From the NCBI RefSeq assembly GCF_016623465.1, contig NZ_JAEDAJ010000002.1:74093-138092 (forward strand): a DNA stretch of 64,000 bases. The letters run 5' to 3'. Below, piece by piece: positions 47,873 through 60,501 of this stretch; position 1 is the first letter of the stretch; each line of letters opens with the position of its first letter. Origin of the DNA: Brachybacterium halotolerans. GTDB taxonomy: Bacteria > Actinomycetota > Actinomycetes > Actinomycetales > Dermabacteraceae. The notes beneath the pieces were generated by a model. That model did not search any database and had not been told where the DNA came from. It was given only the letters and a program-made list of their open reading frames with translations. The translations under genes and the position numbers were made by a program.

Positions 47873-48922
47873 TCAGACCTCGTCGCGGTGGCTGTCGACG
47901 GTGCGCGCCAGACCGTGCCGGAGATCGACCAGCGGACGCCATCCCAGGGAGAGCAGGCGGCCGCTGTCCAGCCCCTGCGCCTTCACGGGCGCATAGCGGC
48001 CGCCGGTGTCGGAGGGCTTGGTGTGCACCTGGAGCCCGAGCTCCGGACGCACGGTCGTGAACGCCTCTGCCAGCCCGCGGATGGACACGAGGCCATCGAC
48101 GTCGGAGATGTTGTAGACCGTCTCGTCGCCCTTGAGGAGGATGACGAAGAGCCCCGCGATCGCATCGGCGACATAGGTGTACGTGCGCTGCGAGCTGCCG
48201 TCGCTGTTGAGGACGATGTCCTCCCCGGCGAGCACCTTGGCGGTGAACTCCGCCTGCACACGACCGTCGTCCAACGCCATCCCCGGGCCGTAGATGTGCC
48301 CGAAGCGGGCGATCCTGCTGGTGATCCCGTACTGCGCCGAGTAGGCCGCGCACAGGGTCTCCGCGGCCCGCTTGCCCTCGGAGTAGCACGCGCGAGGGTT
48401 GAGGATGTCGAACCCGCCGTAGCTGTCCTCGGGGATCAGCTCGAGCTCCGCGTCCTGGGCGCCGTACACCTCGGCCGAGGACATCAGCGAGAAGGTGCTG
48501 CCCTTGCGCACAGCCAGATCCAAGAGATTCATGGTCCCCAGCAGATTCGCCCGCATGGTTCCGATCGGATCCGAGCTGTGGAGCGAAGGACGCGCGGCGC
48601 TCGCCCCGTGGATGATGAGGTCGAGCCTCCCCTCGATGTCCAGGGGCTCCGCGACGTCCTGCACGATGAGGCGGAAGTCCTCACGGTCCAGGACGTCGGC
48701 CAGTGCGCGGCGCGCCTTGTCCCCGTTCCGCACGAGTCCGTGCACGGTGACTCCAGTGCCGCGCTCGTCGTTCAAGCGCAGCAGGGTCCGCACGGCGTAG
48801 GACGGCAGCATGCCGCTGGCGCCCGTGACCAGCACGGTCGATCCGGAGAGGGCGTCCCACGGGAGGTCGCGCCCGATGATCTCGGCGAGGTCGGTATCGA
48901 TGACGCTCGAGGATGCGCTCAT
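47873..48922 (-). CDS. NAD-dependent epimerase/dehydratase (extended SDR)
   Basis: 349 aa. Extended SDR: STVLVTGASGMLPSYAVRTLL (dinucleotide binding), IIHGASAARPSLHSSDP, FSLMSSAEVYG (catalytic Ser), RACYSEGKRAAETL (Tyr-x3-Lys), FGHIYGPGMALDDGRV and QRTYTYVADAIAGLF. Relatives are nucleotide-sugar epimerases or decarboxylases. Third gene of a minus-strand operon after a polymerase and a TarI-like enzyme, 2 bp from the latter, so it may make the activated polyol or sugar that the operon uses. Confidence 0.87.
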   Translation of the reverse strand: MSASSSVIDTDLAEIIGRDLPWDALSGSTVLVTGASGMLPSYAVRTLLRLNDERGTGVTVHGLVRNGDKARRALADVLDREDFRLIVQDVAEPLDIEGRLDLIIHGASAARPSLHSSDPIGTMRANLLGTMNLLDLAVRKGSTFSLMSSAEVYGAQDAELELIPEDSYGGFDILNPRACYSEGKRAAETLCAAYSAQYGITSRIARFGHIYGPGMALDDGRVQAEFTAKVLAGEDIVLNSDGSSQRTYTYVADAIAGLFVILLKGDETVYNISDVDGLVSIRGLAEAFTTVRPELGLQVHTKPSDTGGRYAPVKAQGLDSGRLLSLGWRPLVDLRHGLARTVDSHRDEV

Positions 48923-48924
48923 GG

Positions 48925-49644
48925 TCAGAACCCCGCGATCTGCTGGTTCTCGATCAGCTCGAAGTAGGTGCGGCAGATGTAGAAGTCCTCCGCGGTAGTG
49001 ATCTTGATGTTGGACACCGGACCGTCGACGCGGTGCAGCGGCGCGCTACCGAAGTCCTTCATCACGGAACACGAATCGATCGTGTCATCCTCGCCACTGG
49101 CCACGGCCGCGTCATAGGCGGAGAGGATCTCACCGAGGCGGAAGCTCTGCGGTGCCCGGGCTGCGAAGAGGTTGCCGCGGGGGATGATCGACCCGACATC
49201 GCCGTGGTCGCTGGTCACGATCGTCTCGTTGACCTTGGAGCAGGTGATCGCGGAGCCGTGCTCCTCGACGCCGCGGATGTTCTTCGTGATGAGGTCCTCG
49301 TCGATCAGCGGTCGCACGCCGTCGTGGACGAGGACCACGGTGTCGCCGGGACGGTCCTCCGCGACAGCCTGCAGCGCGCGGTGGCGCGACTGCTGGCCGG
49401 TGCCGCCGCCGTCCACGATCCACTTCACCTTGGTGAGCTCGTAGCGGGAGACCAGCTTCAGGAAGTGCTCGCGCCAGGCAGGGAGGATCGCCACGGCGAC
49501 CGCTTCGACCTCGGGATGGTCCTCGAAGTGCTGAAGGGTGTGGACGATGATCGGACGCCCGTTCACCTCCAGGAACTGCTTGGGCAGTGCCCGGGTGTTC
49601 ATGCGGGTGCCGCTGCCTCCCGCGAAGATCACTCCGACGGTCAT
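48925..49644 (-). CDS. tarI: ribitol-5-phosphate cytidylyltransferase-like (TarI/IspD family)
   Basis: 239 aa. IspD/TarI fold with canonical loop FAGGSGTRM (7-15) and LPKQFLEVNGRPIIVHTL, GGGTGQQSRHRAL, VVLVHDGVRPLID, and C-terminal ISNIKITTAEDFYI-type ending (here VSNIKITTAEDFYI). TarI makes CDP-ribitol from CTP and ribitol 5-phosphate. Its ATG overlaps the stop of the upstream CDP-polyol polymerase (ATGA), and an oxidoreductase follows 2 bp later, a tarIJL-like set in a different order. The MEP-pathway enzyme IspD is the alternative; the neighbours argue against it. Confidence 0.85.
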   Translation of the reverse strand: MTVGVIFAGGSGTRMNTRALPKQFLEVNGRPIIVHTLQHFEDHPEVEAVAVAILPAWREHFLKLVSRYELTKVKWIVDGGGTGQQSRHRALQAVAEDRPGDTVVLVHDGVRPLIDEDLITKNIRGVEEHGSAITCSKVNETIVTSDHGDVGSIIPRGNLFAARAPQSFRLGEILSAYDAAVASGEDDTIDSCSVMKDFGSAPLHRVDGPVSNIKITTAEDFYICRTYFELIENQQIAGF

Positions 49645-51662
49645 GATGCGTTCTCCTTCACGGTCGGGGCGTTCGTACCGGTCGTGTCTGTCGCCTCGGC
49701 AGAGGGATCGTTCAGCGCCTGCGACTCGATCACACCCTCGCCCTCGACGGGTGTGCCGATCGGACGGCCGAGGATCAGCCAGTCGATGACGCGATCGGCG
49801 GAGTGCGTGTCGACGTGGTCGAAGTTCTCGCGCACGAACTTCTCGCGGCGCCACTGCTCGTAGTCCTCGTCCCGCATCGCCGTGAGCAGCTCGTCGAAGG
49901 TCCCGCACACCTTGCCCGGGGCGGTGTCGACGTAGTCACGGTGGAAGCCGCGGGTCGTGGAGTACACGTCCTTGTCGTAGGCGAAGAACAGCATGGGCCG
50001 TTCGAGCAGCGAGTACTCATAGATGATCGACGAGTAGTCGGTGATCAGCAGGTCGACATTATGGAGAAGGTCGTTCCCGTCAGGGAAGTGCGAGAAGTCG
50101 CGCAGCCGGTCCGAGTACTCCGGAGGGATCGGGATCGACTTGCTCACGAAGTGGTGCATGCGGAACAGAACGACGGAATCGTCGCCGCAGTATTCGTAGA
50201 GCGCCTGGAAATCGATCTTGTCGAAGTCGTAGTACCCGTCCTTGATCCCGCGGCCGCGGAAGGTGGGTGCGAACAGGATGAGCCGCTTCCCCCGGAGGTC
50301 CGGGTGCTCGCGATAGAAGTCCTGTTCGACCTGCTCGGTGCGGTCGGGATCCAGGAAGGAGTCGATGCGCGGGAGTCCGGTCGGGACGACGGCTTCCTCC
50401 TCGATCCCGAAGACCTCCGCGTAGACCGGCACAAGATGCTTCGAACCCGTGATCGCGTAGGTGTACCGGCGGTGAGCATTCTGGAGCTTCGGGGAGCCGT
50501 AGTTGCCGAAGCGGCTGTAGCCCACGGCCTTGAAGCCGCTGCCCGCGTGCCACACCTGCACGATGGTGCAGTCCTTGGCCAGCTTGAGGGAGTCGAACAT
50601 CGCGAAGTAGTCGTCGATGAACACGAAGTCGGCCTCGGCGAGCAGCTTCACAGCGCGCAGCGTCGAGCGCTTGTCGCTCGTGCTGGGGATGCGGAAGGAC
50701 TCACTGAACTCGAAGTCCTTGTCCAGGCCGCGCTCGATCATGCGATCGCGGATCCGCAGCAGGTTGCCGCCGATGCGGGGGCGCTGCTCGGAGGCGAACA
50801 GGATCCTGGGCTTCCGCCCCTCCGGCCGATGGTTGCGCACGTACGAATAGAACGAGGAGAGCGTCTCGTTCTTGTTCTTCCTGCTCGTCAGCCGCTTGCG
50901 CAGGGCCGAGGGATACCGCTTGATGCGCGTCGAGAGCTTCGGCTTCTTCGGCTTCTTGCCCCGGCGGAACAGCTGGTAGACCCGCATCAGCAGGATCGGC
51001 GGATCTTCGGCCTCGGAGAAGCCGAAGGAGATCGTGTAGCCGGTCTTGTTCGCGTCGTACATGAAGACCCGCGAGAGAGAAGGAATGTTCTCTGCGGACG
51101 CGATGTCATACGTCGCCGCCTTGCCGCGCTGTCCGTCCACGCGAGGGATGATGCGCCACGTGCCGTCGGGGAACTGGCGACGCCCGTTGAAGCGCGTGAT
51201 GTTGATGCGGATCTCGTAGTCACGGCCCCCGAGGTGGGTCGCCTCGGCGCGCTGCACGCGCTTCTTGTCCACGAAGATGAACTCGACCGCGCCGGACTCG
51301 ATGTCCTCGAGCGTTGGGATGGTCGAAGGACCAGTCGCGATCTCCTGGGCCACGGGGATCTCCACGACACCCTCAGCCTCGGCCTCGGTGGACTCGACAT
51401 CGACTTCGAGCGCGGTGGGGTCGTCGGACGAGTCGTCTTCCATAGCGCCATTGGCCAGCGCACCGGCCGCGTCAGCAAGTTCCTGCGGGACATCCGGCAG
51501 CCCGCTGTCCGTCGAGGCGCTGTGGGTGCCCGATTCCTTTTCGTCAGCCCGCCCGTCGACCGAAGCGACGGTCGACGGCTCCTCGATCCCGTCGAAGGTC
51601 AGCCTGAACGTCACCCAGATATGACTCCAGGTGATCTCTGCCACTCTTAAGCGCGCTGCCAC
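49641..51662 (-). CDS. CDP-glycerol/CDP-ribitol polymerase (TagF/TarL type)
   Basis: 673 aa. Canonical teichoic acid polymerase domain: IVQVWHAGSGFKAVGYSRFG (catalytic His region, about residue 367), LFAPTFRGRG, LFRMHHFVSK, LLITDYSSIIYEYSLLERPMLFFAYD (about 540) and YVDTAPGKVCGTFDELL. Unlike the three paralogues in this window it has WHAGSG, not HGxSDK. The N-terminal 200 residues are a beta-rich accessory domain preceded by an acidic Glu/Asp-rich stretch; no membrane helix. GTG 51662 is chosen (GGAGAGG upstream); GTG 51644 is possible. Coupled to tarI. Confidence 0.87.
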   Translation of the reverse strand: MAARLRVAEITWSHIWVTFRLTFDGIEEPSTVASVDGRADEKESGTHSASTDSGLPDVPQELADAAGALANGAMEDDSSDDPTALEVDVESTEAEAEGVVEIPVAQEIATGPSTIPTLEDIESGAVEFIFVDKKRVQRAEATHLGGRDYEIRINITRFNGRRQFPDGTWRIIPRVDGQRGKAATYDIASAENIPSLSRVFMYDANKTGYTISFGFSEAEDPPILLMRVYQLFRRGKKPKKPKLSTRIKRYPSALRKRLTSRKNKNETLSSFYSYVRNHRPEGRKPRILFASEQRPRIGGNLLRIRDRMIERGLDKDFEFSESFRIPSTSDKRSTLRAVKLLAEADFVFIDDYFAMFDSLKLAKDCTIVQVWHAGSGFKAVGYSRFGNYGSPKLQNAHRRYTYAITGSKHLVPVYAEVFGIEEEAVVPTGLPRIDSFLDPDRTEQVEQDFYREHPDLRGKRLILFAPTFRGRGIKDGYYDFDKIDFQALYEYCGDDSVVLFRMHHFVSKSIPIPPEYSDRLRDFSHFPDGNDLLHNVDLLITDYSSIIYEYSLLERPMLFFAYDKDVYSTTRGFHRDYVDTAPGKVCGTFDELLTAMRDEDYEQWRREKFVRENFDHVDTHSADRVIDWLILGRPIGTPVEGEGVIESQALNDPSAEATDTTGTNAPTVKENAS

Positions 51663-51953
51663 TCGACAGGTGTCCTCTCCATTGCTTCTTCGAACGATGC
51701 TTCCCACCCTCGGAACCCCGGAAGGCCGACGCGGCAAGGGCTGAGCCGTGTCGGAGAAGCACCCCGGCAGTACGGGCAACAGTGCAACCGCCCCGGGGCG
51801 ACGACGTCCATAGCTCAGCCGCTTCCGCGCCCAGCCAGCCGTGGGTACTGTACGTCGAGTAAACACAGGGTGGACGCCAGGTGACATCGTAACCGCAGTC
51901 GCCCCCTGTTCGGCTTGCGGCGAGCCGCTGAACACGACGAAAACGGAGCAAAA

Positions 51954-53540
51954 GTGTCCAAGTTCAAGGTCCTCCTGTTGACGAACAACGACTCGGACAA
52001 CGTCGGCGACCAGATCATCGAGGCATCGGTGATCGCACTGATCAAGGCAGCCATGCGGAACCTGGGCCGCGGCGACGACTCGTTCGTCATCGACAGCCGC
52101 GCGGCAGGCATCATCAACAAGAAGTACCTGCAGCGCAACGATCCGAAGCACCTCGCAGCCGCACGCACGGCCATCTCGAGCGCGGACCTACTGATCTTCG
52201 GGGGTGCGCCGCTCTTCAACTACTCCTACCAGGTGTTCTACCGGAAGACGATCACGACTCTGGAGATCGCGCAGGAGTTCGGGGTGCCCGTCCTTTTCTC
52301 GAGCATCGGCGTCGAGAAGTACAACTCCCAGAACGAGAAGTCCCAGCAGCTGAAGCGGGCCCTGCAGCTGCCGGTGGTTCGCCAGATCACGACGCGCGAC
52401 GACTTCGACTCGGTACGCAAGTACACCGAAGAGACGGGAATCCCCGTCGCTCACGTCGCCGACCCCGCGGTCTTCGCAGACATCGTGTTCGGGCCGATGA
52501 CGGACCCGTCGGCACACAGTGCCGCAACGAACCTCGGCGCGTCCCCGGAGTCAGACGCAGGCGAGTCCGTCAACGAAAACGCGAAGCAGCCGACCGTCGC
52601 CGCGCTCTCGCGAGCGGTGTCGACGTCGCGTCGACAGATCGAGCAGATCGCCCGCCGGACGGCTCGTCGGGCACTCCCCCGTCTCGCCGCGCAGGATCGC
52701 CGACCGCAAGAGGCCACCACCAGCACGGTGAGCCCGAAGCCCGCGCCGACGACAGCTTCGGCGTCCTCGCCGAAGAAGTCCGGACGCCGGATCGGTCTCG
52801 TGGTCACCCGCGCCGGCATCTTCAAGGACAACAAAATCAACTTCTCGGAAGCAGATCAGCAGAACTTCTGGCTCGATGTAATCGCGAAGCTCAAGGCTCG
52901 AGGGGATGATTATCGACTGTTCACGACCGGACATTTTGCCGATGAAGTGTTCCTCGACAACATCGTCCGCAAGCGGGACGTCCCCATCAACAAGACGATG
53001 TTCACCGTGAACTCACCCGAAGAGCTGATCAGCGAGCTGACCGCCTGCGACGGGGTGATCGCTTACCGCCTGCACGCGAGCATCACGAGCTTTGCATACT
53101 CCGTTCCCTGCATCGGGCTTTCCTGGAACTTCAAGGTGCCCTACTTCTACGACTCGGTGGGATATGGGCACCGGGCGATTTCGTCGGAGAACTGGAACGC
53201 GGACCACGTGCTCAAGCAGTTGGACCGGGCGATGGAGGAGGGCGTGTCGAAGAAGCCGTCCGAGCTGATGGACGTCTATCGGACGCTCTTCGATGGCATC
53301 AAGGGCGTCGTCGCCCCGGAGAGCGCGGCGCGGCCCTACACCTACGGCCAGCTCGAGAAGAACCTGCCCCGATATGAGGGCACCTCGCACGAGCAGTACC
53401 AGGGGAAGGTGCGACGGAAGCTGCGCCGCGGCTACGAGAGCTACAAGAAGAAGGATGTCGCCCTGGCCGAGACGCGCAAGGACCTGGCGCAGGCCCGCAA
53501 GGACCTTGCTGCGGTCAAGGGCGAAACGCAGAGAGGATAA
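51954..53540 (+). CDS. polysaccharide pyruvyl transferase family protein
   Basis: 528 aa. Pyruvyl transferase fold split by a linker: VLLLTNNDSDNVGDQIIEASVIALI, DLLIFGGAPLFNYSYQVFYRK, VLFSSIGVEKYN in the first half; RIGLVVTRAGIFKDN, GVIAYRLHASITSFAYSVPCIGLSWNFKVPYFY in the second. Between them (about 195-280) is a Ser/Ala/Pro/Arg-rich insert. The last 45 residues form a basic coiled coil (KDLAQARKDLAAVKGE). Would add pyruvate from PEP to a polymer sugar. GTG start with GGAG 5 nt upstream; divergent from the polymerase operon. Confidence 0.83.
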   Translation: MSKFKVLLLTNNDSDNVGDQIIEASVIALIKAAMRNLGRGDDSFVIDSRAAGIINKKYLQRNDPKHLAAARTAISSADLLIFGGAPLFNYSYQVFYRKTITTLEIAQEFGVPVLFSSIGVEKYNSQNEKSQQLKRALQLPVVRQITTRDDFDSVRKYTEETGIPVAHVADPAVFADIVFGPMTDPSAHSAATNLGASPESDAGESVNENAKQPTVAALSRAVSTSRRQIEQIARRTARRALPRLAAQDRRPQEATTSTVSPKPAPTTASASSPKKSGRRIGLVVTRAGIFKDNKINFSEADQQNFWLDVIAKLKARGDDYRLFTTGHFADEVFLDNIVRKRDVPINKTMFTVNSPEELISELTACDGVIAYRLHASITSFAYSVPCIGLSWNFKVPYFYDSVGYGHRAISSENWNADHVLKQLDRAMEEGVSKKPSELMDVYRTLFDGIKGVVAPESAARPYTYGQLEKNLPRYEGTSHEQYQGKVRRKLRRGYESYKKKDVALAETRKDLAQARKDLAAVKGETQRG

Positions 53541-53599
53541 GCGCCCGGGAGGCCATCAGCACCGCCGGGCGTCACAGTGAGGCTCCGAAGGGAGAGGAA

Positions 53600-53628
53600 C
53601 CGAGCACGCGGCGACTGCCGCTGCTCGG
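53600..53628. terminator. bidirectional hairpin terminator
   Basis: CCGAGCA-C-GCGGC-GACT-GCCGC-TGCTCGG: 12 bp paired with one bulge, 4-nt loop, between convergent genes ending at 53540 and 53630. Confidence 0.6.
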
Positions 53629-53629
53629 A

Positions 53630-54334
53630 TCAGTCCTCTCGGGTCTTGTTCCAGTACTTCTTGGACTTCTTGTGCCCTCGGGGAAGTCCGTCGATGCCGG
53701 GTTGCCGATAGGTCAGCAGAGGGCGCTCCCACGCGGTGTCCCGCTTGACCACGCGCGCGGGAGCCCCGACGGCGACGCAGTTGTTGGGGAGGTTCTTCGT
53801 GACGATCCCGCGAAGGCCTACGACGGACCCGTCTCCGATCTTCACGCCGCCCATCACCACCACGTCCTTGCCGAGCCAGACATGCTCCCCCACCTCGATC
53901 GAGGCTGCTGGATTGGACCTCTTTCCGGTGCGCACGTCGTATATCGCGTGCGAGTCATCGGCACGGAATGCGACGCCGGAAGCGAGCATGCAGTCATCGC
54001 CGATATTGACACTCTGCCCTTCGGAGACCCGGATGAAGGACTTGGTCTCGGCGCCGACGTTCGCCCCGATCCGGACGGTGCACTGGTGCCCCAGGCGCAT
54101 CGAGAAGCGCAGTCCCGTGCGGGGCACCGTGGTGTCCCCGATGACGACCAGCGCGTCGTCGCCGGAGAAGTCGACCATCAGGTCCACGATCTTCGAGGTC
54201 GGGGCGACCACGAGCCTGTTCCCGGAGCCGCGGAGCTTGATGGTCACATTCGCGCTCGGGGGAAGCTCGCCGTCGTATTCGATCGAGTTGCCACGCTCGT
54301 CGAAGTAGGGCACGAGCTCGCGAAGCGTCTCCAA
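53630..54334 (-). CDS. hexapeptide-repeat acyltransferase
   Basis: 234 aa. Left-handed beta-helix repeats from about residue 55 on (VRIGANVGAETKSFIRVSEG, VNIGDDCMLASGVAFRADDSHAIYD) and the C-terminal acyltransferase loop WLGKDVVVMGGVKIGDGSVVGLRGIVTKNLPNNCVAVGAPARVVK. Acts with acetyl-CoA, probably O-acetylating a polymer sugar; His in DSHAIYD is the likely catalytic base. TTG start at 54334, weak ribosome site. Basic C-terminal tail (HKKSKKYWNK). Confidence 0.88.
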   Translation of the reverse strand: METLRELVPYFDERGNSIEYDGELPPSANVTIKLRGSGNRLVVAPTSKIVDLMVDFSGDDALVVIGDTTVPRTGLRFSMRLGHQCTVRIGANVGAETKSFIRVSEGQSVNIGDDCMLASGVAFRADDSHAIYDVRTGKRSNPAASIEVGEHVWLGKDVVVMGGVKIGDGSVVGLRGIVTKNLPNNCVAVGAPARVVKRDTAWERPLLTYRQPGIDGLPRGHKKSKKYWNKTRED

Positions 54335-54542
54335 AGGTGGGACCTGCTTTCTGGTGGATAGGGAGCCATGTGATCAGGACTATCGCACGCGGAAAAGATC
54401 AGGCTCCACCGGGTCGACCCGAGCACGGTACGTCCCGGCGAACGTCCATTCAAGCGACACATCGAAGTGTGCCCTGCCCACGTCAAGGTCGAGCAACAAC
54501 CGTGGCACGAGTCCGGCGTACCCTGCAGAGCACCAGCTGGCT

Positions 54543-55943
54543 TTATTTCCCGTGACGCCAGGCTGCGAAACGCTCCCAGGACCGCACCGGCCACATCTTC
54601 TGGAGCCGCCCGAGCTTACTCGCGTTCGTGACCGTGCGAGCCTCCGTCACCGCCAGACGCTTCTCGAGAGTCCGCATACGCTTCTCCAGGGAGGACGGGG
54701 CGACCCCAACCAGCGCATCCGCGGAGGTTGCTACGGCCTTGCCTTTCGCGGGAACCACTCTCTTGGTCGACGCAGACTCCGCAGCGCAGGTGACGCCGTT
54801 GTTCGGCGCAGTCACCGCACCATCACTGTTCGTCTTCGCGGCAGCGGCGAGCCCCCTCTTTCGAACCTTGGCGTCGTACTCGGAGATCAGACCGCGTAGA
54901 ACCTCGGCCACGTCATCAGCCCCTTTGGCCTCGGCGTGATCCAGGTTCGCCTGTGCGTAGGATCGCTTACCATCGCTGGACACCTTCATCTCACGAATCG
55001 CGTCCAGGGAAATATTGGATTCGAAGGTCTTGAACTTCGGCAACACGCCCTCCACGGCGGGTGTAATCATAGTGCGCTTGCACTTCTCACATTCGCCGCA
55101 GTTGTACTTACCGGTGTTCTGCCAGCACACACGCAAGTGCCGCTGGGCTACGGGGTCACGCGAGATTCCCACGATCTTCGTGACGCGATCCGAGCCATTG
55201 CCGTCGTCGACGACGGAAAGGCGATCGCTTGATCACCGGTGGTCAAGAATCGGGTGAGTCCCCCACGCGAACGTGTCGCTGAAGGTGTAGGAGCCTGGCA
55301 TGAGCATGCGGCCGAAGCGGCTGTTGAGCAGGTGTCCGACCGATGAAAGCGCTGCGCCGTGGGCAATCAGCGGCCAGGAGCCCGCTCGGTTCTGGAACCG
55401 GCGGATGTTGGTGGAAATCTCGATCAGCTCCTTGCCGGTCTCCTCGGCCACCGCCTGCAGGTGCTCAGAAGTCACCTCGCGAATCTCCTTGCGAGACAAC
55501 GCGATATCGAAACCATGCACGTACACCAGTGCATCGATGTCACCCTTGTTGTTGACCAGCGTGTCGAACGAGTCCACACCACCCGTGAAACAGGCCATGG
55601 TGCGGTTCGACCGCGGAGCGCTGTCCGCCTTCCGCACAGGAGCGTCGACGTCGAAGGCCCGCAGCTTCTCCGGATACCAGGTGAGGAAGATGTCCTGGAT
55701 GGCCCGCTTGTTTTACACGAGTCGCTTCGAAACGGGACTGTCCAGTCTCAGCGTACCGTCGCTGCCCAGAGCGAGGATCATCCCGATCGTGAAGAACGAA
55801 TCCGCTGCGCCCTCAAGGTCCGTCCCGGCGTCGAGCGGCAGTCGGTACCACGCCTCACCTTCGTATTCGGGCATGGCGATGTTCGCCGATACGACAAGAG
55901 CGTCTCCGTCTTCCCGAATTGCAATGGATGAGATGTCAACCAC
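54543..55943 (-). pseudogene. PP-loop ATPase-like gene interrupted by two in-frame stop codons
   Basis: One continuous frame of 467 codons from a GTG at 55943 (good ribosome site AGAGGGGGAG) to a stop at 54543, broken only by TAA at 55713-55715 and TGA at 55233-55235; no frameshift. Coding sequence continues seamlessly on both sides (SPVSKRLV-stop-NKRAIQDIF; THPILDHR-stop-SSDRLSVVDDG). The TGA stands where relatives would likely have Trp. Parts: N-terminal beta domain, PP-loop ACFTGGVDSFDTL (about residue 120), HGAALSSVGHLL, a zinc-like CWQNTGKYNCGECEKCKRTM, and a C-terminal coiled coil (SSLEKRMRTLEKRLAV). ATP-pyrophosphatase family, possibly amidating or thiolating a surface sugar. Stop-codon readthrough is the alternative. 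Confidence 0.75.
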
Positions 55944-56285
55944 GACGCTCCCCCTCTTCCTGCGCTTTAGACTTCGATAAGAACCCGTACACGCGCACAC
56001 ATGCAATGTGCTCGAGGAAGCGTCACTGCCCCCTCGGGCGTCGACACAGTGGCCGGTGGCAGATGTGCACCATTGCTGATCCGTCGTCACGGATACTAGC
56101 CGACGACATGCGACTCCTCAGGCTGCGACTCACAGCCCTCCACATCGCGTCGCGCCGGATCCAGCGGGCCGCAGCGGCGGCGATTGATAATCGGATGGGC
56201 AGCCCACGCCACGCACCGGAGAGTCTTCGCGCAAGAAAAGGCAGCGTCGCTCACGTTCACGCGGTAGTCATCTGCACGATGATCA
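55944..56285. other. 342-bp gap without a gene
   Basis: Lies between the interrupted PP-loop gene start and the end of the next pyruvyl transferase gene, both on the minus strand. Open frames here are short and lack ribosome sites or recognisable motifs. It probably carries the promoter of the PP-loop gene; I could not pick a convincing one. Confidence 0.5.
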
Positions 56286-58049
56286 CTATTCCCCACGCAC
56301 GAAAGCTCTGCGCACTCGGCCGATGGTCCTGCCCAGCGGAGCGAGCAGGGCGCGCCCTCTCGCAAACCGGCCTCCAGGCGTCCCCGTCGCAGCCGTGTCC
56401 TGCCCTGAGTCGACAGGCAGGGACGTCTCGTCCTTCTTCCAACGTGCCTCGAACACAACCGAGCTGATGTGGTTGACAGGCATGTGAGGGATCCTCGCCC
56501 CGTCGGGAATGACCGCCTTGGCCGCCCGGCCGCCCGCTGTGAGCTGCTCACTCGTCGCGAATGAGCCGTCCGCCAGGTACCACAGCCATCGGTTGTCGAT
56601 CCGAAACCGCATGGCCCAGCCGACGAACGCGCGTCCTGCAGCGACGAACTCTCCTCGCGGCAACGGGCTGCGACCGTCGTTGACGAAGCGACGACCTGGC
56701 CACCAGTACTCAAGCGCTCCGCTGGGAACCACTTTCGTCTTCACGCGCTCAGCCTCGTCGCGAAGTGCGACCGAGCGGCCAGCACTACCGCTGTGGAAGT
56801 GGACAGGGAACTGGATCTCCCGACGCCTCTGCTCGAACCGCTCCCGATCGATGGCAGTTCCGTCAGCGATCGAGGCTTCCGCGCGGCGTAGCGCCTCGAA
56901 GATGAACGCCTCCGAGTGCTCGCGCATTGACCGCAATGGGGCGTCGGTCGAGCGGAAGTCGACGTCCGAGGACAGCGTGCGGACGTCGTCATCGGGCGCA
57001 AACTGTTGGCCCTGAAGACCGAACGTGGCCAGAAAATTCGGCACTTTCTTCCCCATCCTCTTCCCAACGAAGAAGGGCGTCTCAAACAGCAGCGAAAAGC
57101 AACAACCATGGAAGGAGTTCGTGAACACACACTCCGCGTTCTCAATGTATCCCAACCATTCGTCCTGCCCAACGTCATACCGCGCCACATGCCGCACTTC
57201 GGGATCGTTGACTTGGCCATATTTCAAGGGCCTGTCAGACAGCTCTACAATCGTCAGATCATGAAGCTTCGCGTACTCTACGGCCTTCTCTACTGTGTCT
57301 GCGGAACGCCCCATCACGTAATAGAGCAGCAGATACTTCTCCTCGCGCGGGGCTACCGCCAGATCCCGCCAGAAGCGGCCGTCGTGCAACAGGACAGGAT
57401 CGAGCACTGTCGTCGCGTCCAGATCGGAGTTCTGCTCGATGTACGCTTCGAGGTCTGGTTCCCGCACTCCGATAGCCTCGATTTCCCCGAGGTAGGAGAA
57501 GAAGATATCTGCAGTCTTCCCCGTGAAGTCCTTGGAGATCCCTCGACTAGCCGCGTAAGCGATCTTCGGCTTACCCTCGAACGCCTTGCTACCCAACAGG
57601 AAGCCCCGGTCGAAAGTGTATGTGGGGTCAGCAGACCAGATCACGTCGGTCACGCAGATGTAGCAGTCAAAGCCGGGATCCTGTATCTCCAGGAGTTCGG
57701 AATCATACTGTTCCTCGGTGACGGTGAGATTCCTGCGCTCGAAGTCCTGGAATCGGTCAAATCGGCTAGCGCGTTCTGCGGCGAGGCTCCGGTAGCCGAC
57801 GGCCAGATCGGCCAGCCTCTCAAGCTTCGCCGGTGACGCGCCAGCCATAACAGCCTGCCGGTACTCTTTTTCGGCGTGGGCTGCCGGACTGCGCATGTCG
57901 TGGTCGCCGTACGTCACGGGCTTATAATCCAGAATGGTCGAGGAGTACCCGTTCTTCTCTAGGAATTTCTGGAACGCGTACGCGTGCAGCTGGCACGCAA
58001 AATTTAGGAACCGCGCATACTTGTTGATGCCGATGAGCCCGATCTCCAC
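56286..58049 (-). CDS. polysaccharide pyruvyl transferase family protein with C-terminal beta domain
   Basis: 587 aa. Pyruvyl transferase: LNFACQLHAYAFQKFLEKNGYSS, a helical insert, ICVTDVIWSADPTYTFDRGFLLG, KIAYAASRGISKDF, IGVREPDLEAYI, and VFTNSFHGCCFSLLFETPFFVGKRMG with the acceptor-site SFHG. The last about 150 residues look like a small separate domain (YWWPGRRFVNDGRSPL, AFVGWAMRFRIDNRWLWYLADGS) possibly polymer-binding. GTG start with GAGGGTG upstream. Base composition is less GC-rich than neighbouring genes (for example 57001-57120), hinting at transfer. Confidence 0.85.
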   Translation of the reverse strand: MEIGLIGINKYARFLNFACQLHAYAFQKFLEKNGYSSTILDYKPVTYGDHDMRSPAAHAEKEYRQAVMAGASPAKLERLADLAVGYRSLAAERASRFDRFQDFERRNLTVTEEQYDSELLEIQDPGFDCYICVTDVIWSADPTYTFDRGFLLGSKAFEGKPKIAYAASRGISKDFTGKTADIFFSYLGEIEAIGVREPDLEAYIEQNSDLDATTVLDPVLLHDGRFWRDLAVAPREEKYLLLYYVMGRSADTVEKAVEYAKLHDLTIVELSDRPLKYGQVNDPEVRHVARYDVGQDEWLGYIENAECVFTNSFHGCCFSLLFETPFFVGKRMGKKVPNFLATFGLQGQQFAPDDDVRTLSSDVDFRSTDAPLRSMREHSEAFIFEALRRAEASIADGTAIDRERFEQRRREIQFPVHFHSGSAGRSVALRDEAERVKTKVVPSGALEYWWPGRRFVNDGRSPLPRGEFVAAGRAFVGWAMRFRIDNRWLWYLADGSFATSEQLTAGGRAAKAVIPDGARIPHMPVNHISSVVFEARWKKDETSLPVDSGQDTAATGTPGGRFARGRALLAPLGRTIGRVRRAFVRGE

Positions 58050-58620
58050 GTTGCACCCTCGCCTTTCGGGTGCACCGACGATGGCGCACCGCCTAGAGGA
58101 TAGACAAGACAGAACCGGCAGCCGTAGTCGACCCGCCTACTGGATGCTCCGTGAACTACGAGCACAGTCGAAGGGACGAGACCACACCTACCGGGTGCCG
58201 AGGCCGTGGCATGCCTATTGCATCCACATCCGCGTCGGGGCTGGCTGAGTGTCGACACTGCACCGCAACACATCGTCGAGTCCGTTCTGTGCCCGCTTTC
58301 GCCGGTGGCGAGGCGCGTGTGCGGGAACGGCGATCCGCAGCACGGCACGCACGGGCCAGGCCGCGAGCAGCGCGCGCTGACAGCCCTCCCGGCAAACGGG
58401 CAGATTCCGGAAACCGAGCAACCGGATGATCGGCTCCACCCCCCGCCCCCCGAGGACGCGCGAGGCGCCAGGTGCACGGCTCTGCCACATGAGCTATGCA
58501 GCAACCACACCGCTCTTGCTGTGGCGCCCGCCACATATATCTGGTGCAATCGTGAGTGCTGCGGTCACCACCGCACGCCCTCCCGGCCCGGAAGAACGGG
58601 TCCGATCGAAGGAGAAGCAC
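58050..58620. other. 571-bp gap without a gene
   Basis: Between divergent genes at 58049 (minus) and 58621 (plus). It holds a 16-bp inverted repeat at 58520-58535 and an AT-rich CATATATC beside it; otherwise no gene, RNA or terminator that I can support. Frames open here on the minus strand are the tail of a long shadow of the gene at 58621. Confidence 0.6.
58520..58535. promoter_or_regulatory. 16-bp inverted repeat beside an AT-rich promoter-like site
   Basis: TGTGGCG-CC-CGCCACA, followed at once by TATATC; TTGCTG at 58516 could be a -35. About 85 bp before the ATG at 58621. Suits an operator-promoter overlap. Confidence 0.35.
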
Positions 58621-60501
58621 ATGGGTAACCTGCCCGGCTGGGTCATCCCGGTCATCATCCTCGTCATCGTGGTCCTCGCGATCCTGATCATCGTGGGGGT
58701 CGTCAGCTCTCGTCGGCGCCGTGCGCGCCAAGAGGAGATCGACCGCCAGCGGGCTGCCGAGCTCCGGCAGCAGGCGCAGAAGGACCAGGTCGGCGTGAAG
58801 GAGCGGGAGATCAGGGCCCGCGAGACCGAGCTCGAGGCCGACAAGGCGAAGGTCGAGGCCGAGCGCCGCGAGCAGTCCGCGCAGGAGCAGCGGCAGGAGG
58901 CCGACAACGCGCGTGCGGACGTCGATGATCGCCTGCGCCAGGCCGACGCTCTCGACCCCGACGTCGACACCAAGCACTCCGGCGCGCAGGACGGGACCGC
59001 CGTCCGCCGCGACACCGGTGACGCCGACGGCGCGACGGCGCGCCGGGATGCCGGCGCCCCGGCGGACACCTCGGACTCCCCGCCGACCACCGATCGTGAG
59101 GACGGTCGAGCGGCAGGAACGGGCGCGGCCGTCGGCGCAGGGGCCGCCGGCGCCGATGCCGGCGTCACCGCCAGCGAGGCCGGTGCCCGCTCGCGAGAGG
59201 AGAGCACCGACGAACAGGCGACGCGTTCGCATCGCAACGACGATGCCGTCACGCCGCGGGAACCCGTCCAGGAGGACGTCGACCACGACGGGCGCCGCCG
59301 GGCGGTCGACGGGCACGAGGACCGTCGCTCCACGGGCGAGACCGGGACCGCAGCCGCCGCGGGCGGAGCGGGCGCGGCCACGGCCGCCGGAGCCGGCGCC
59401 GCGGGAAGCCGCCCCGGCGACCAGCCGGCGGATGCGCGCCGCGTCGACGACGACCGTCCGCAGACCCACCGCGACGATGCCCGCGACCCCGAGACCGCGC
59501 CGCGGGACGCACGAGAGGTGCAGGCGCCTCGGCGCGAGAGGGACGAGCGCCCAGTGCCCGACCAGCAGGATCCCGGCGTCAGCACCCAGGACCCGCGCGC
59601 CGCCGAGCACGGGCTGCGGGACGATCGACGCGTCGGCGGCTCGCACGAGGCGACCACCGACACGGCCGCCGCAGGAGCCGGAACGACCGCTGCAGGAGTC
59701 GGAGCGGCCGGCGCCGGCGCCCGGCGGCCCGGCGACGAGACCCGGAGACCGGGAGACGACGAGGGCCGCGTCCTGACGGACGAGGAGATCGAAGCCCAGG
59801 GCGCCCAGCACGGCGAACGAAGTGAGAGCGCCGACGGCGTCGCGGGACACCGTGCGGAGGCTCCGGACGCCGCGGATCGCCGCGAGGTGGGCGAGGGCAC
59901 CCCGGATCGTCGCCTCCAGGATCAGGGCGTCGGCACCCACCGGGACGACATCCACGGCGGCACCCACGCCGCGGATGGCCGCGTCGCCGATGGGACTGCC
60001 GACCGCCCACGGGATGACGACCCTCGCATCGCAGGTCGGGACGACCGCGGACAGGGCGCCGAGCCGACCGATTCCGCCGCCGCGGGATCCGCCGCGGCGG
60101 GCACCCGCGCCGATGGCGCCGGGGCGACCGATGAGTACGACCGGGATCGGCAGGCGCCGGTCCAGGATCGACAGGCGCCGGTCCCGAATCAGCAGGCGCG
60201 GGTCCAGGATCGGCAGGCACCGGTCGATCCCGGTCAGCAGCAGCCTCTGAATAAGCAGGACCAGGTCTCGGGCCAGTGGGGCGCGGTCCCCGCTCAGGGC
60301 GATCAGGTCCCGGAGCAGCGCGGCCAGGCCCCCACCGGTGAGCAGGGAGAGGTCGACCCCTCGCAGCAGACCGAGCGCCCCGGCGGCGGGAGCACTCTCC
60401 CCGGGTCCGAGGCCGAGGGCTCCGACTCCGAGCAGGGGCTGCTCGACCGTCTGAAGAAGCTTGGCAAGGGCGACGACGGGCGCGGGTCCACCGGCATCTG
60501 A
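58621..60501 (+). CDS. single-pass membrane protein with coiled coil and long low-complexity region
   Basis: 626 aa. One N-terminal transmembrane helix (WVIPVIILVIVVLAILIIVGVV) then Arg-rich cytoplasmic stop-transfer, a coiled coil (about 35-105: AELRQQAQKDQVGVKEREIRARETELEADKA type heptads), then about 500 residues rich in Asp, Arg, Ala, Gly and Gln. Three spaced Gly/Ala stretches occur (GAAVGAGAAGADAG, AAAAGGAGAATAAGAGAAG, AAAGAGTTAAGVGAAGAGA). Short QAPVQDR-type repeats lie near the C-terminus. Start supported by AAGGAG 7 nt upstream. Function unknown; layout resembles envelope scaffold or YtxH/DUF948-like proteins. A hairpin terminator follows. Confidence 0.75.
   Translation: MGNLPGWVIPVIILVIVVLAILIIVGVVSSRRRRARQEEIDRQRAAELRQQAQKDQVGVKEREIRARETELEADKAKVEAERREQSAQEQRQEADNARADVDDRLRQADALDPDVDTKHSGAQDGTAVRRDTGDADGATARRDAGAPADTSDSPPTTDREDGRAAGTGAAVGAGAAGADAGVTASEAGARSREESTDEQATRSHRNDDAVTPREPVQEDVDHDGRRRAVDGHEDRRSTGETGTAAAAGGAGAATAAGAGAAGSRPGDQPADARRVDDDRPQTHRDDARDPETAPRDAREVQAPRRERDERPVPDQQDPGVSTQDPRAAEHGLRDDRRVGGSHEATTDTAAAGAGTTAAGVGAAGAGARRPGDETRRPGDDEGRVLTDEEIEAQGAQHGERSESADGVAGHRAEAPDAADRREVGEGTPDRRLQDQGVGTHRDDIHGGTHAADGRVADGTADRPRDDDPRIAGRDDRGQGAEPTDSAAAGSAAAGTRADGAGATDEYDRDRQAPVQDRQAPVPNQQARVQDRQAPVDPGQQQPLNKQDQVSGQWGAVPAQGDQVPEQRGQAPTGEQGEVDPSQQTERPGGGSTLPGSEAEGSDSEQGLLDRLKKLGKGDDGRGSTGI

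Follow-up and report, generated by a model that had tools for sequence, protein, structure and literature searches.

Closest described PP-loop systems

Among described PP-loop proteins, QueC (PF06508) and the QueC-like proteins carry an SGGxDS-type PP-loop followed by a CGxCxxC-type cysteine motif. N-acetyl sugar amidotransferase (WbpG/LpNASAT) is a PP-loop enzyme with a zinc tetracysteine and belongs to a surface polysaccharide locus (PMC10607449). The gene analysed here lies in a 64,000-nucleotide stretch of DNA from Brachybacterium halotolerans (the window, to which all positions refer), and the intact protein of its family likewise combines an SGGxDS-type PP-loop with a downstream cysteine motif. 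However, QueC lacks the extra N-terminal domain, the C-terminal coiled coil and the polymer-gene neighbours of the Brachybacterium family. The SGGKDS motif and the CXXC-Xn-[GN]XCXXC spacing of WbpG/LpNASAT (PMC10607449) are unlike those of the Brachybacterium protein, for which no matching profile of that enzyme was obtained. This amidotransferase is an example of PP-loop zinc enzymes known to act on sugars of the cell surface.

Searches of Pfam, NCBIfam, PHROGs, PADLOC and the PDB sequences returned nothing over the curated cut-offs, and no literature on the PP-loop family of the intact orthologues was found. An identity as QueC is not supported by the profile scores: PF06508 reached 12.2 against a 22-bit cut-off (E 0.12) in one distant relative and the others gave no match. 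Phrog_1550 was matched at E 6e-6 in a distant relative only, and DUF6395 (PF19932) matched weakly across the region of the cysteine motif, with a best score of 20.3 against a 25-bit cut-off. The top Foldseek rows included carbapenam synthetase, asparagine synthetase, TtuA, GMP synthetase and TrmU, all weak and none at E <= 0.001. Weak as they are, these profile and fold matches agree with a PP-loop, QueC-like reading of the protein.

Architecture of the encoded protein

Translation and alignment placed the PP-loop region CFTGGVDSFD at codons 118-127 (55563..55592, minus strand), in which G121, G122, D124 and S125 were invariant in eight relatives. In the predicted model, the N-terminal domain is beta-rich, and a strand at residues 114-118 is followed by a helix at 123-131, which places the SGGxDS-type motif where strand one of a Rossmann-like domain ends. 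The intact protein carries the motif of the PP-loop ATP pyrophosphatase superfamily. The cysteine motif CWQNTGKYNCGECEKCKR (codons 273-290; 55074..55127, minus strand), also located by translation and alignment, was invariant, with the spacing C-x8-C-x2-C-x2-C in close relatives. For the C-terminal coiled coil with its WPVRSW tail (codons 416-466; 54546..54698, minus strand), the B. subflavum model shows two helices, at residues 416-450 and 454-463, with low confidence past residue 444. Taken together, the intact protein is a PP-loop protein, so far uncharacterised, whose cysteine motif resembles that of QueC; it probably modifies the wall polymer, a role suggested by neighbourhood and motifs only. 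In intact relatives, it would probably activate a carboxyl or amide group with ATP, thereby modifying a building block or decoration of the polymer.

A side observation concerns the C-terminal ending. Three adjacent proteins of Timonella senegalensis (L009:3360-7251), which belong to different families (pyruvyl transferase-like, acetyltransferase-like and PP-loop), share a coiled-coil-like C-terminal stretch ending in [LW]P[VI]R.W, and the Brachybacterium and Brevibacterium PP-loop proteins have the same ending (window 54546-54698). Judging from these sequences, the shared tail may serve as a docking or membrane-contact tail for a polymer-making complex.

A 467-codon frame interrupted by two stop codons

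Translation of the minus strand from 54543 to 55943 gave a single 467-codon frame with exactly two internal stops, a TAA at codon 77 (55713..55715, minus strand) and a TGA at codon 237 (55233..55235, minus strand). The frame is the sole copy in the source genome. It starts with GTG preceded by GGAAGAGGGGGAG, the start codon at this position being ATG in B. subflavum and TTG in B. endophyticum. When the stops were read through, the protein matched the intact B. subflavum orthologue over its full length and free of gaps with 95% identity, and the intact B. endophyticum orthologue over its full length with 76% identity, while the proteins of Brevibacterium sediminis and T. senegalensis showed about 50% identity each. 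Because the match to intact orthologues extends over all 466 residues, the frame represents a real coding sequence and not a chance open reading frame. The nucleotide sequence differed from that of B. subflavum at 47 of 1401 positions (3.4%), affecting 43 codons, with no insertion or deletion. The proteins of these four relatives are full-length members of the same family with the same type of polymer gene adjoining, but unlike the source frame they have no internal stops. The G166 homologue also encodes an intact protein, and the TGA flagged within two distant homologue matches (L058 and L059, both checked) was the terminator of those genes themselves. The sequence-only reading had described a frame broken by the TAA and TGA alone, free of frameshifts, with a PP-loop, a Cys-rich motif, a coiled coil and a good ribosome site at its start, and the observation is confirmed. 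Its proviso that no homologue might span the stops does not apply, as intact full-length homologues cover both sites.

The codon alignment that the same reading had proposed showed TAC (Tyr) at codon 77 and TGG (Trp) at codon 237 in B. subflavum, B. endophyticum, Brevibacterium and Timonella, and sense codons at both positions in every aligned relative. Tyr77 and Trp237 are common to the closest relatives and not to the most distant ones; across homologues the residue at 237 is Trp, Leu or Ala, and never Cys. Since all four relatives have TAC and TGG, both stops were derived in the source lineage, and on this alignment codon 77 changed from TAC to TAA by a C-to-A transversion and codon 237 from TGG to TGA by a G-to-A transition. 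Of the two single transitions suggested earlier, TGG to TGA therefore holds, whereas CAA to TAA gives way to the transversion.

It might be argued that the real gene is intact and that the stops are sequencing or assembly errors, as two codons alone separate the frame from an open one and the source sequence is a 24-contig draft. This is unlikely, given that both stops are substitutions, whereas long-read errors are typically indels, that the assembly reaches 99.99% completeness at 0.03% contamination, that internal stops are absent from the other compared genes of the locus, and that the same copy is also altered at the conserved Leu295 and Ser207.

Additional substitutions and constraint on the broken copy

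Changes between the source and B. subflavum copies were assigned to lineages using B. endophyticum and more distant sequences. Over codons 1-360, four non-synonymous changes fell on the source lineage itself, namely Y77-stop, S207N, W237-stop and L295P. At codon 295 (55059..55061, minus strand), directly 3' of the cysteine motif, Pro replaces a Leu that every one of the eight aligned relatives has, and at codon 207 (55323..55325, minus strand) Asn replaces a Ser found in seven of the eight. The earlier statement that no conserved sequence had been lost is thus not quite accurate, and L295P is probably a damaging change. Variable positions accounted for all four changes that were ambiguous or fell on the sister branch (codons 43, 284, 296 and 348). 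Sites conserved among the closest relatives were accordingly hit by 4/4 own-lineage and 0/4 sister or ambiguous changes (Fisher p about 0.03, sites classed by eye), a value that is merely indicative because of the small numbers and the classification by eye. S207N and L295P, few as they are, suggest relaxed constraint in the broken copy.

Against B. subflavum, the dN/dS ratio came to about 0.2 for codons 1-360 and to 0.05 for codons 78-236, which implies that the loss of the gene is recent. Taken by itself, the low ratio would also be compatible with residual function and would to that extent count against a pseudogene. An alternative would be a shorter functional protein that initiates past the TAA, for example at GTG 55637, and whose end is the TGA, unless this codon is read as selenocysteine. 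GTG and ATG codons do exist inside the frame, and the ratio of 0.05 lies in the part concerned; however, a convincing ribosome site is absent 5-10 bases upstream of GTG 55637 and ATG 55598, and the start in close intact relatives lies upstream. An internally started protein would also be without the N-terminal domain and, if ending at the TGA, without the invariant cysteine motif as well, and we regard this alternative as very improbable. With about 15-30 substitutions on the own branch, 0.4-0.9 nonsense changes are expected and the probability of two or more is about 0.06-0.24, so two stops are unremarkable once the gene is free of constraint and fit neutral drift after its loss.

The frame is very probably an ordinary pseudogene, in which nonsense changes have very recently disabled an accessory gene for a surface polymer. 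In this explanation, a PP-loop ATP-pyrophosphatase-like gene would have gained TAC>TAA at codon 77, TGG>TGA at codon 237 and at least one more probably damaging change (L295P), all presumably after the split of the source lineage from the B. subflavum copy. Translation would stop after 76 residues, upstream of the PP-loop, so that no enzyme would be made, and the loss would probably only alter the surface polymer. The earlier proposal of a very recent inactivation finds support in intact orthologues at 3.4% nucleotide divergence, the extra damaging substitutions of the own lineage and a relative without the gene.

Readthrough and selenocysteine

The sequence-only reading had also offered readthrough of the stops, which would yield a full-length protein by means of a suppressor tRNA or, at the TGA, selenocysteine. 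The check for suppressor tRNAs that it had suggested was run on all 48 tRNAs found with a general tRNA model, each of which was given an anticodon. None of these reads TAA, TAG or TGA, and a suppressor tRNA with anticodon TTA, CTA or non-Sec TCA was not found among them, although the draft assembly could miss one. Both release factor genes, prfA and prfB, are present, and the neighbouring genes end normally at TAA, TGA and TAG. A separate search revealed a tRNA-Sec (anticodon TCA) and SelA encoded side by side (contig C23:21947-23408), so the organism is probably able to insert selenocysteine somewhere.

Selenocysteine at the TGA was examined and rejected. A stable hairpin (z about -2.5) lies 3' of the TGA. 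However, the orthologue of B. subflavum, with TGG at this site, has the identical hairpin, and those of B. endophyticum, Brevibacterium and Timonella have not kept it. An Rfam search at the site gave zero matches. Selenocysteine is very unlikely because the site is Trp and never Cys in relatives, the hairpin is shared with a TGG copy, no Rfam element was matched and the TAA comes earlier. With neither TAA nor TAG read by any of the tRNAs found, both release factors present and a Trp ancestor at the TGA, readthrough to a full-length protein is contradicted and its likelihood is very small. It is hardly conceivable that the TGA is decoded to give selenocysteine within a shorter PP-loop protein starting after the TAA; if true, this Sec-competent actinomycete would possess a new selenoprotein. 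As a separate observation, the adjacent tRNA-Sec and SelA indicate that the source genome probably makes at least one selenoprotein.

Locus context and distribution

The frame lies in a teichoic-acid-like wall-polymer locus. Its neighbours include an intact hexapeptide acetyltransferase-like gene (53630..54334, minus strand), an intact polysaccharide pyruvyl transferase-family gene (51915..53540, plus strand), an intact TarL/TagF-like polyol-phosphate polymerase gene (49641..52151, minus strand; limits of the open reading frame, the true start being probably further in) and, upstream, a second intact polysaccharide pyruvyl transferase-family gene (56286..58049, minus strand). An NAD-dependent epimerase and an IspD/TarI-like cytidylyltransferase are also encoded in the locus, in which all remaining genes are open.

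The PP-loop gene was carried by 3 of 38 Brachybacterium genomes. One Brachybacterium genome (G021) has homologues of the polymerase, pyruvyl transferase and acetyltransferase without the PP-loop gene, a remnant of which was sought there and not found; the locus therefore persists without the gene, which is accessory and dispensable. Another accessory gene for a surface polymer that was lost recently is, as a finding, of small significance. The strain nevertheless offers a natural knock-out of a PP-loop family that is uncharacterised and belongs to a teichoic-acid-like locus, and comparing its wall polymer with that of B. subflavum could reveal the role of the family.

Two minor observations concern divergence from B. 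subflavum. Within the gene, codons 361-420 (window 54684-54863), which connect the PP-loop part to the coiled coil, differed by 14% while the flanks differed by 1-2%; this segment is a fast-evolving linker. Over window 48500-58974, compared with L006, divergence formed a mosaic: it was mostly 0.4-10% over 48.5-56.7 kb, apart from 50.75-51.5 kb, where one stretch reached about 15%, and it was about 13-16% over 56.75-58 kb. Recent interspecies exchange of part of the locus would explain this pattern. Near 56.75 kb, within the upstream pyruvyl transferase gene, divergence jumps abruptly from a few percent to about 14%, a step that resembles a recombination breakpoint.
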